Below are positions 57,552 to 60,672 of a stretch of DNA of 64,000 nt, one piece after another. Both the position numbers and the translations under genes were made by a program. The first letter of the stretch is position 1. Every line of letters starts with the position of its first letter. The notes under the pieces were generated by a model, which was not told where the DNA came from, did not search any database, and saw only the letters and a program-made list of their open reading frames with translations. Origin of the DNA: Leucobacter salsicius M1-8. GTDB taxonomy: Bacteria > Actinomycetota > Actinomycetes > Actinomycetales > Microbacteriaceae. The stretch lies in contig NZ_AOCN01000022.1 of the NCBI RefSeq assembly GCF_000350525.1, forward strand, positions 1 through 64,000, read 5' to 3'.

Positions 57552-57656
57552 TGTTTAATCCTTTCGTCTATGGTTATATTACTCACGCTCAACCTCGTGG
57601 TGGAAGACGTTGACGCTTGTTCAGTAAAATTACGGCCCGCAACAAAGGAGTCCAGT

Positions 57657-59143
57657 ATGAATGCAACACGCTCATCGCCCGGAATGTCAGACCGAGGGAA
57701 CGCCGTCCCAGATGGTACGACGACCCTCGCGAAGGGGCGCCTTGGCACCTGGGACATCGTGTTCTTTGTGATCTCGGCGGCCGCGCCGCTCACCGTGATT
57801 CTGAGCGGCGCGATCACCTCGTTTCGCATGGGAGGGGTTGGGCCCCCGGCGCGATCCTATTCTGTGCCATCGTGCTGATTTTCTTCGCCCTCGGGTTTAC
57901 TGCGATGTCCAAGAGCGTGCGGAACGCGGGGGCGTTCTATGCCTACGTGTCACGCGGTCTCGGCAAACCCTTTGGCATCGGGGTTTCCACGGTGACGGTG
58001 TTTGCATACATCTCGCTTGTTGTCTCGTTCTTCGGATTCATCGGGTTCTTCGCGCAGTTCACGTTCGCCGAACTCTTTGGGCTCGACCTGCCGTGGGGCG
58101 TCTGGTCGTTGCTCGCCGTCGCCATCGTGGCCTTTCTGGGGTACCGAAAGATCGACGTTGGGGCCAAAGTGCTGGCAATCCTGCTCACCCTCGAGGTTGG
58201 GATCTTGCTCGTGTTCGCCGTTGCCGCGATCGCGGACGGTGGGCCCGAGCCATGGAGTCTCGCCTCCTTCGACCCGCAGAATGTGTTCTTTGCGAGCGGC
58301 GCGGGTGCACTCTTCGTGATGGGGTTTGGTGCGTACCTCGGGTTCGAAAGCACGGCAATCTATGCGGAGGAGGCGAAGAACCCCGATCGTACGGTGCCGC
58401 GGGCGACCATCATCTCGATTGCGTTTTTGGGCGTCTTCTACGCGTTCACGTTCTGGATTTTGACGGTGGCCTTCGGGGTTGAAGGCGTGGTTGAGCTGGC
58501 ACGCAGTGATGCCTTCGAAACCATGGTGATTGAGGGTACGGGTGACCTGGCGGGAGCCGGGGCCGCGTTTGTGATGAAGATTCTGATCGTCACCAGCTTC
58601 TTCGCCTGTGTGCTGTCCTTCCACAACGCCTGCACGCGCTACCTGTTCTCGCTCGGGCGAGAGGGGCTCCTGCCGCGTGCGCTGGGACGCACCAGCAAGC
58701 GTAGCCAGTCGCCCGCCGCGGCAAGTCTCACGCTGAGTGCCTTCTCAGCCCTTGGCGTGCTTGTCGCAATCGTGCTGCAGGCCGACCCGTTCCTCGGGCT
58801 CGCCCTGTGGACCTATGCGACGGGTGTGCAGGGGCTCGTGTTTGCCCAGGCCATTACCGCGATCGCGGTCGTGTGGTACTTCCTTAAGGACCGCCGGGGA
58901 TACAGTGTGTGGCGGGTCACCGTCGCGCCCATTCTCGGGGCCATCGGGTTGATCGTGGGATTCTTCCTGATCGCCACAAACTTCGAAGTGGTGACCGGTC
59001 TCGAGGGACCCATCAATCAACTGCTCTTGCTGCCCACGCCAATCCTGTTTGTCGGAGGCATTATCGCGGGGCTCGTGATCAAAGCCCGCAGGCCCGCCTA
59101 CTACGCAGGGCTCACGGAGACCGTCACGGTCACGCCGGGGGGG
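57657..59143 (+). pseudogene. APC permease pseudogene (frameshift, IS-truncated)
   Basis: The true start is the ATG at 57657 with AAAGGAG upstream: MNATRSSPGMSDRGNAVP, then TWDIVFFVISAAAPLTVILSGAITSFRMGGVG. Near 57840-57850 the frame is lost. Restoring one G in GTTGGGCCCCCGG joins it to APGAILFCAIVLIFFALGFTAMSKSVRNAGAFYAYVSRGLG and the rest of a 12-helix permease. At the 3' end an IS110 element entered a G tract. The host frame continues on the far side as PGGALEDELVAR and a stop at 60635-60637. A base-call error could explain the frameshift, but not the insertion. Confidence 0.85.
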
Positions 59144-59161
59144 TTGCCCCTATTACTTTTG

Positions 59162-60361
59162 TCAAGCCGCAAGCGCATGATCAGCTTGATATAGCGACCC
59201 GTCTCGGAGCATCGCGAAGAGGACATCACAGCGTCGTCTGGCCAGGGCGATGAGAGCCTGGTTGTGCCGTTTGCCCTGCGCGATCTTCCGGTCGTAATAG
59301 GCGCGTGAGACGGGATCTCTGAGCGCGGCGAAGGCCGAGAGGAACAGGGCTCGTTTCAACACCCGGTTTCCGCGCCTAGACGAATGTTCGCCGCGGATCG
59401 ATGACCCGGATCTTCGGGTCACGGGAGCTAGACCGGCGTAGGAAGCCAAGTGGCCAGCGGACTCGAAGTGTTTGCCCGCCACTTCGGTGAGGAGCCTGGC
59501 GGCCGTCCTAACGCCGACTCCCGGCATGCTCATCAGGACGATCGAAAGAGGGTGCGCCTCAACGATCTCTTCAACCAGGACCGCTATCTCAGCCCGTTGC
59601 CGCCGCAGCGCTGCGAGTTGTTCCGCGAGGCGCGGAAGGACGACAGCTGCGGCATTCGTGCCAACCACCACGACCGTTTGAGCAGCCAGCGCGTCCATGA
59701 TCTCGGACGCAAGACGATGTCCCATACGCGGAGCAAGCCTTCTGAGGCGTGTAGCTAACCGTTGAGGGCCGGCCTGCTGCATCACTGCGGGCGATGGGTA
59801 GCGCTGCAATAGATCAAGGACCGCAGGATGGTCCAGGTGTGGGCCGATCACGCGTTCGAGTGCGGGATGGATCTGAGTGAGGAGCCCCCGTACCCGGTTA
59901 CTCGTCGCAGTGATCTGCCCGAGGACGTCATCATCAAACCCGCACAGCATCGAGAGCTCAGCAACGGATTCGTCAGCGACCTGGATGGATCGCAGCGCGT
60001 GGGGCAGAGTTCTGGCGGCTTGCGCAATGATTGCGGCGTCTCGGGCATCGGTTTTTGCTTCGCCGGGGTGGAGGTCTGCGATGCGACGCATCGCTAATCC
60101 CGGCAGGTAGCCGACGAGCACCCCTTCGGCTTGAGCGACCGCGATCGGGAGTGCTCCGATGGTGGCTGGCTGGTCCACGACGACGAGCACGTTGCCATGG
60201 TGTTTGAGGTGCTGCAGGACGTCACGCATTTTGGCTTCATCGTTAGGGAGCGGTTTGTCGTAGAGACTTTTACCGGCTCGGTTGAGGGCGACGGCGTGGT
60301 GTTCGCCTTTGCCGACGTCGATGCCGACGAACACGTCGACGTTGTCGTAGTTCTCGATCAT
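59162..60361 (-). CDS. IS110-family DEDD transposase/recombinase
   Basis: 399 residues. N-terminal RuvC-like DEDD domain: VGIDVGKGEHHAVAL (first Asp), VVVDQPATIGALP, and KTDARDAAIIAQAA (last two Asp). The C-terminal Transposase_20 domain has SMPGVGVRTAARLLTEVAGKHFESAGHLASYAGLAPVTRRSGSSIRGEHSSRRGNRVLKRALFLSAFAALRDP with the serine region. It looks intact. IS110 recombinases cut and join DNA under the guidance of a bridge RNA. The start is the ATG with GGACGGAGC upstream. An ATG 20 codons earlier is less likely because it runs into the RNA region. Confidence 0.93.
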   Translation of the reverse strand: MIENYDNVDVFVGIDVGKGEHHAVALNRAGKSLYDKPLPNDEAKMRDVLQHLKHHGNVLVVVDQPATIGALPIAVAQAEGVLVGYLPGLAMRRIADLHPGEAKTDARDAAIIAQAARTLPHALRSIQVADESVAELSMLCGFDDDVLGQITATSNRVRGLLTQIHPALERVIGPHLDHPAVLDLLQRYPSPAVMQQAGPQRLATRLRRLAPRMGHRLASEIMDALAAQTVVVVGTNAAAVVLPRLAEQLAALRRQRAEIAVLVEEIVEAHPLSIVLMSMPGVGVRTAARLLTEVAGKHFESAGHLASYAGLAPVTRRSGSSIRGEHSSRRGNRVLKRALFLSAFAALRDPVSRAYYDRKIAQGKRHNQALIALARRRCDVLFAMLRDGSLYQADHALAA

Positions 60362-60399
60362 GACTGCTCCGTCCGTTGAGATTTCGGCGGTCAGCTCCT

Positions 60400-60585
60400 G
60401 GTATTGAGTCCCGGCATCCACGTTACGGACGGCCCTGGAACGAGTTCCTGGCCGAGCCCCTATTAGCGATCACTCAATACCGGTCAGACCCGGTGGCAAC
60501 ACCCCCCGGATCATGGATGACTGGGGGCAATAACCATGCCGGGTCTGACTGGCCGCCGCCCTTCCAGTGTGATGCTGGAAAGGGC
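60400..60585 (-). ncRNA. Candidate IS110 bridge RNA
   Basis: Read on the minus strand, three stem-loops follow one another: a 5' hairpin (60585-60558, GCCC-TTTCCAG with CTGGAAGGGC); a long one (60552-60480, 14-bp stem around CAGACCCGG with one mismatch); and a third (60481-60400, exact 10-bp stem GGTATTGAGT/ACTCAATACC with an inner GGCCAGGAA...TTCCAGGGCC stem). Loop 2 has TTGCCCCC and CCGGGGGG, matching the two sides of the G/C-tract target. Loop 3 has TAATAGGGGC, identical to the element end, and GTAACG, complementary to its other end. This is the order expected for 5' stem-loop, target loop and donor loop. Confidence 0.65.
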
Positions 60586-60606
60586 TACGAACAAGGTAAC
60601 GGGGGG

Positions 60607-60637
60607 CGCGCTCGAAGACGAACTCGTGGCTCGGTAA
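60607..60637 (+). pseudogene. 3' tail of the IS-interrupted permease gene
   Basis: After the G tract the frame reads A-L-E-D-E-L-V-A-R and a TAA stop, continuing P-G-G of the permease left of the element. A short charged tail of this kind is normal for the family. Confidence 0.6.
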
Positions 60638-60672
60638 TCGGAGGAGTGCACCGGGAGTAATAGGCTGAGGGC

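Follow-up and report, generated by a model that had tools for sequence, protein, structure and literature searches.

An IS110-group element of Leucobacter salsicius with a candidate bridge RNA, C-tract targets, and apparently unequal donor and target cores

INTRODUCTION

The window analyzed here is a stretch of 64,000 nucleotides of a Leucobacter salsicius M1-8 contig, and it holds an insertion sequence that lies between two runs of C. The question raised by this locus is whether the noncoding end of the element encodes an RNA that reads both the target and the element's own ends and, if it does, which bases target and donor have to share. A sequence-only reading had proposed a bridge RNA with three stem-loops in a row on the minus strand, one loop fitting a C6/G6 target tract, another fitting the element ends, and a homopolymer as the core. 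Comparison with copies and relatives of the element indicates that this is a bridge-RNA IS110 element with C-tract targeting and with donor and target cores that appear to be unequal.

RESULTS

The element and its flanks comprise the following features.

59146 to 60600, minus strand: IS110-group insertion sequence of 1455 bp whose first base is the G at position 10 of the right donor and whose last base is the C at position 7 of the left donor
59162 to 60361, minus strand: recombinase gene, ATG at 60361, with domain matches to DEDD_Tnp_IS110 and Transposase_20
60601 to 60606, minus strand: left flank of the target tract, C6
59137 to 59143, minus strand: right flank of the target tract, C7, the sole C/G run of at least seven in the window

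In a domain search, the recombinase matched PF01548 over positions 1-155 of 155 (E 1.1e-47) and PF02371 (E 4.7e-22) and thus has both the DEDD RuvC-like and the Transposase_20 domains of the IS110 group; its residues 250-393 match solved IS621 and ISCro4 chains. The left end, 60362-60600, consists of 239 noncoding bases upstream of the ATG, as is usual for the IS110 group, and 16 nt separate the stop codon from the other end of the element. The candidate RNA lies upstream of the recombinase and not in the right end downstream of it, as it does in the IS1111 group, and the element as delimited here includes 60400-60585, the region to which the RNA had been assigned. In the window (57617-59150 and 60601-60660), the insertion sequence seems to interrupt a permease-like gene in the part that encodes its C terminus, and the flanking genes are presumably a permease and a TetR gene.

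The RNA and the guides that we assign to it are as follows.

60558 to 60585, minus strand: 5' stem-loop of the candidate bridge RNA, from a fold prediction for the window RNA only
60483 to 60549, minus strand: target-binding stem-loop, from structure covariation
60400 to 60481, minus strand: donor-binding stem-loop, from structure covariation
60523 to 60531, minus strand: left target guide (LTG) ATTGCCCCC, positions 1-9, from guide-flank covariation
60502 to 60507, minus strand: right target guide (RTG) GGGGGG, positions 14-9, from guide-flank covariation
60499 to 60501, minus strand: UGU after the RTG, with a U opposite core position 8 that is complementary to donor A8
60456 to 60465, minus strand: left donor guide (LDG) TAATAGGGGC, from donor-end comparison
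60418 to 60426, minus strand: right donor guide (RDG) GUAAC plus core GU, from donor-end covariation
60596 to 60600, minus strand: left end with the right donor (RD) GTTAC, which covaries with the RDG
59145 to 59152, minus strand: left donor TAGGGGC plus core base A8, at the right end
59160 to 59165, minus strand: TTGACA, putative -35 of a promoter completed on end joining, 18 nt from TACCTT in the left end

All four loop sequences of the sequence-only reading were found where it had placed them: TTGCCCCC (60523-60530) and CCGGGGGG (60502-60509) in the target loop, the LDG sequence, which matches the element end at 59146-59155, and GTAACG (60421-60426), opposite the left-end GTTAC. The three predicted stem-loops fall within the 239 bases before the start codon, and the 206-nt minus strand folds into stem-loops with z = -4.2, with 0 of 200 shuffled sequences equally stable. 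We aligned 55 of 65 dissimilar RNA regions, omitting L064, L075, L098, L169, L171, L172, L173, L175, L199, and L201, and two-sided changes affect 21 of the 36 pairs in the RNAalifold consensus. Two-sided compensatory cells numbered 190 versus 55.5 in shuffled alignments (0 of 500 reached 190) and 16-37 in slid controls, and 95.4% of cells pair versus 87.0% and 30-54%, respectively. In this 55-sequence alignment the two-sided support is located in the target and donor stems, so that the covariation expected of the stems was recovered for these two; the 5' hairpin, a prediction for the window RNA, is absent from the consensus fold. The RNA thus shows the IS110-group arrangement of a 5' stem-loop, here a predicted one, and two covarying loop stems, with the covariation coming from the latter. 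Rfam gave no match at the gathering score within the window, and near the RNA its single match at E <=1 was mir-598 (60305-60355), outside the RNA and far below the gathering score. Judged from these comparisons, the minus strand from 60600 to 60400 is very probably the bridge-RNA gene of an IS110-group element.

Of 103 elements, 98 have TTGAC[AG] when their ends are joined; a hexamer follows at a distance of 17 or 18 nt and reads TACCTT or TACTTT in 78 of the 98. To judge by sequence only, the elements have a putative promoter at the RE-LE junction, as is the mark of the IS621 subtype.

Junctions were collected from 80 contig loci, from genomes of the same family, class, and phylum, from one large-genome actinomycete genus (a relative at E 1e-120 or better in 129 of 343 genomes; target loop readable in 30 of 35 loci), and from E. 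coli records. Removal of repeats reduced 122 junction records to 115, the second match of L055 among 105 right records was spurious, and the guide tests took in records with a readable target loop. All frequencies given here are those of the sample, since the search for loci used motifs of the recombinase and of the loops and only left ends with GTT or TTA passed the filter.

Left guides matched their flanks at 5.66 of 9 positions versus 5.17 when permuted (n=129; z 6.2-6.3), and right guides matched at 5.23 of 7 versus 4.53 (n=118; z 9.6), with 0 of 100000 permutations reaching either value; these permutations ignore kinship, which a tree answers only partly. Of 7 registers tried, offset 0 scored highest on the left and on the right alike, with neighboring offsets also above chance. 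On the right, positions 10-14 each covary and 15-16 do not, and left guides match above permutation at positions 3-8. In a first permutation test on 105 records, before the large-genome genus was included, permuted guides did as well in 542 of 10000 cases on the left and in 6 of 10000 on the right, and the signal came entirely from a few variants. The base before the left end was C in 108/108 junctions of the first set and 126/129 of the final set, and its counterpart on the right (position 9) was C in 119 of 120 of the final set. The three left junctions that end in A (L199, L201, and L222) have CTATCACA or CTCTCACA before the left end and are alike among themselves. The right C run after the A peaks sharply at six C (36/95), as expected from the six G of the RTG, and the left C run peaks at four (34/106).

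At the donor ends, RD and RDG were complementary to each other in 129 of 136 elements, a set that was not de-duplicated (GTTAC 111, ATTAC 11, GTTAT 7), and this count is not unbiased because the RDG search pattern, which left seven loci without an RDG, itself favors xTA[AG]x. Among the seven that disagree, three (CAGAC) come from GTTACTATATACAGAC elements whose left ends were misplaced. The left-donor variants GGGG, GGGA, GAGG, and GAGA are mostly mirrored in the LDG, with L052 among the few exceptions. In 111 of 120 right junctions, ..C-A from the element, ending in A8, precedes the target, and position 8 at the left junction is C in 119 cases, T in 9, and G in 1. Because of this right-hand ..C-A and the left end GTTAC, the donor junction would read GGGGC-AC-GTTAC. 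The cores would then be AC in the donor and CC or TC in the target, with only the second base, C9, in common, and the left product keeps target position 8 and the right product keeps donor A, just as top-strand exchange predicts. The homopolymer assigned to the core in the sequence-only reading thus holds for the target and gives way, in the core itself, to a single shared C. A CC donor core was considered and dropped. The IS621 subtype has a CT core common to donor and target and paired in all four guides; here, each of the two right guides has GU as its core bases, which complement donor AC. We infer that the GG following the RDG core GU is a handshake guide for target C7C6 and, by analogy with IS621, that the G and U of the UGU at 60499-60501 serve donor C7 and G6, the latter by wobble. 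These junctions suggest that donor and target cores need only one base in common.

Nine of the 120 right ends have C in place of A, which could reflect repair toward the target. In the first set, right ends without A8 were L019, L043, L053, L060, L078, L098, L116, and L187 (8/105). Very long C runs adjoin the right ends of L043 and L092, and in L032 and L079 the right flank reads GTTAC or GTTAT after GGGGCAC or GGGACAC and so resembles the element's own right donor, which may be a donor-like insertion site or a tandem remnant.

The register just described, N8-C9, has one serious competitor, C8-N9, in which the donor core is CG, the target core is CC, and the cut lies one base earlier. The same junctions are expected from both registers, and C8-N9 lets the RDG pair with CACGTTAC gap-free; it corresponds to left offset +1, which is also above permutation (z 4.1), and in the class-level loci L165, L180, L185, and L195 the left side is one C short of the guide. 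On the other hand, N8-C9 (offset 0) scores higher, with the z of 6.2-6.3 given above, guide and left flank of L050, L100, L112, and L168 align best in it, and it yields the IS621 rule of a cut after the core together with a five-base RD. Because C runs change length, empty sites do not fix the cut to the base, and the register rests on the relatives whose targets are not homopolymers. We regard C8-N9 as unlikely, although it deserves real weight, and the following is worded for N8-C9.

Relatives with altered guides mostly stand at correspondingly altered sites, and guide-target pairing thus appears to be readable from natural genomes. Among the 118 right junctions, sites were identical to the right guide for CTTTT (6/6), TTTTT (3/3), and CCTTT (1/1) and for GCTCA (1/1) and TCTCA (1/1), the last two belonging to two Arthrobacter elements one base apart, so that all 12 junctions with these non-C guides match. 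The left guide of L100 matches 8/9 at ATTTGCCC. The CTTTT, TTTTT, and CCTTT guides belong to a subclade of the large-genome actinomycete genus, and in a tree of 26 of 30 proteins (L050, L052, L100, and L199 were out, having no long frame) TTTTT guides occur in two separate supported groups, L168/L197 and L203, beside CTTTT elements; the right flank of L197 is absent from the data.

A recombinase that itself prefers C tracts, by protein or DNA-shape recognition, with loops that mirror the sites by ancestry, would explain why C-tract sites and C/G loops are common to most relatives. It would also fit the finding that among the ordinary C-guide elements of the first set the guides add nothing beyond the run, a guide matching its own flank no better than those of others (left n=94, 4407/10000; right n=88, 1812/10000). 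The CCCCC guide has a matching site in 80 of 99 junctions, with 19/99 lacking five C at 10-14, and, as such a preference would allow, CCCCG (one G lost; 1/6) and CCTCC (L053; 0/1) rarely match and mostly stand at plain C runs; the CCCCG and CCTCC mismatches may reflect guides that changed recently or ends that are poorly discriminated. The 12/12 matches of the T-rich and GCTCA/TCTCA relatives, which are spread over three or more parts of the sample, speak against this explanation, and we consider it very improbable.

The host genome (3.19 Mb) holds four full copies that are identical over 1455 bp and stand at four different C tracts, all with C on the recombinase strand (4/4, same orientation), and the expectation that copies with the same loops would be found at like tracts was thereby upheld. 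Their left flanks end in C6, C5, C5, and C4, one C5 flank being stopped by a contig edge, and their right flanks after GGGGC read A-A-C7, A-C7, A-C5, and A-CCCTCC. A fifth copy (L090; G000:C13:44961-46258) has 81-86% identity, is internally deleted, and adjoins a C run. This genome has 12 distinct runs of C8 or longer left (from 50 overlapping matches), several of them clustered and four within 60 bases of each other. C tracts that are this rare and that slip easily are an unusual niche for a transposon.

Since the window flanks hold 6 C on the left and 7 C on the right, the empty tract was longer than C6. No empty counterpart of the site was found among 11 same-genus loci (L227-L237); in all 11 the permease and TetR genes are close neighbors without an insertion sequence, and the spacer differs. 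When the window flanks are fused through a tract of n G, with n from 8 to 14, the permease reading frame runs on to its TAA if n is 9 or 12; the value 6+7-1 = 12 is weakly consistent with one shared base.

ISEc20, a relative in E. coli, was compared at six sites with E. coli records that lack it. At an rtcB-like gene, the occupied flanks are C5 and A-C7 and the empty site is C4AC6 in two of three records and CCCCAATCCCC in the third; in the hha region, the occupied flanks are A-C5 and C6 and three records read A2C11, CACCCCCCTCC, and ACAACCACCC. Two empties at an IncFII-type site are diverged (CCCATCCCC), and L120 and L121 are further records whose printed stretch does not hold the site. Empties at the L108 site read C8, C8, and C7, and the occupied copy has lost left bases; compared with L129/L130, this E. 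coli plasmid site is without the stretch left of the empties' C run. At the L115 site, an 81-base match reads C9 and an 85-base match CCCTCCCCC, with the occupied right flank rearranged, and the L116 site has one diverged empty (AATCCCC) and another record that retains the element's end. The ISEc20-free tracts C8, C9, C11, and C4AC6 thus indicate targets of about 8-11 bases. The proposed C6/G6 target was therefore right as to the C homopolymer and too short.

Conservative recombination with a short shared core, rather than target-site duplication, is also favored by an element of Arthrobacter sp. MA-N2. A duplication of 4-6 bases would account for C runs at both ends and for CGCTC at both ends of this GCTCA-type element (L050/L051), which is flanked by ACGCTC and CGCTCAC. 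Merged at the C that they have in common, these flanks read ACGCTCGCTCAC, which has 46 exact matches in that genome, in otherwise varied surroundings (30 contexts), versus 1 for a reversed control, and both CGCTC stretches pre-exist in this repeat; the target speaks for one or two shared bases, and a five-base duplication was dropped. L168, with C5 on the left and C-T5 on the right, shows no such repetition of its flanks, and the rtcB-like site has 11 bases when empty and 5+7 when occupied, which leaves duplication highly improbable. A structure unrelated to targeting, formed by chance or serving regulation as a terminator or leader, has as an account of the stem-loops nothing specific in its favor beyond a GC-rich, strongly folded region and, being contradicted by the covariation of loops with sites and with ends, is the least credible explanation of all.

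DISCUSSION

Our results bear out the proposal of an IS110 element with a readable bridge RNA through three kinds of covariation, namely, within the stems, between loops and sites, and between loops and ends. As is typical of the IS110 group, the loops are complementary to the target and to the element's own ends and covary with both. The proposed loop order, guide senses, and assignment of the donor loop likewise agree with the structure, with guide-flank and donor-end covariation, and with the four identical copies.

By analogy with IS621, the element would excise as a circle with the joined ends GGGGC-AC-GTTAC, and joining would thereby create the full TTGACA / TANNNT promoter from which the bridge RNA is transcribed. 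Across relatives, the target loop matches both halves of the site, with the left guide fitting the left C run and the right guide fitting positions 10-14; the donor loop matches the element's own two ends. As in IS621, the recombinase-RNA complex may exchange top strands that it has cut immediately past the core C, which would leave the target base at position 8 in the left product and donor A8 in the right product. Since the guides read AUUGCCC-CC (left) and C-CCCCC (right), insertion would be into tracts of about ten C.

It is an even question whether a large IS110 lineage, found in Actinomycetota, Burkholderiales, and Enterobacterales, recombines at donor and target cores that differ by nature (AC versus CC/TC), so that a change in the target loop alone switches targets. 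If it does, both right-hand guides code the donor core, the target half is freed from the donor since only one shared base is needed, and the switched targets would include C tracts, C-T tracts, and a genomic repeat with 46 copies. The natural series of guides with matching sites makes pairing rules outside the CT-core IS621 group readable and testable. Moreover, this lineage can be studied in E. coli, as ISEc20 matches 1455 of 5426 complete genomes, and in 1116 of these the match covers 80% or more of the ISEc20 length.

ISEc20 (E. coli, Klebsiella, and Shigella) and ISBma3 (Burkholderia) have recombinases with about 75% amino-acid identity to that of the window element. ISEc20 shares the loop layout and, at the six sites looked at, the C-run flanks; it differs in its left target guide (ACTGCCCCC) and in a first hairpin that is shorter than that of the window element. 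In E. coli, the first 62 bases of the ISEc20 query also match prophage lysis-gene regions (H113-H119; Rz annotated in 6/7) without the rest of the element. A literature search by the name ISEc20 found no paper on its guide or target, the name occurring in annotations, and among the openly available titles listed, none concerns C-tract targeting by an IS110 element. ISAar29 has as its host, we assume, Arthrobacter. Durrant et al. inspected this element as one of six.

The ISEc21/ISMch6 seekRNA systems are likewise IS110-type elements with an upstream guide RNA, natural reprogramming between relatives, and insertion without target duplication, but instead of a homopolymer they target a codon region in the transposases of the IS3 family (PMC11187229).

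The recombinase of the window element has about 399 aa, in contrast to that of IS621, which has 326 aa (328 in its PDB chain). The likeness to IS621 extends to the recombinase domains, an RNA in a long left end with a 5' stem-loop followed by target and donor loops, LTG and LDG of top-strand sense with complementary RTG and RDG, RT and RD at positions 10-14, and a promoter formed from joined ends (PMC11208160, PMC11208158). The IS621 core is described as C8-T9, with position 8 looser than the almost invariant T9 and with the top-strand cut following position 9 (PMC11208158). Whereas donor and target both have this CT core in IS621, the element studied here appears to pair a donor AC with a target CC or TC, to keep C as the invariant core base, and to insert into C tracts. 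The use of the repeat ACGCTCGCTCAC by the MA-N2 element, in turn, resembles the use of REP sequences by IS621.
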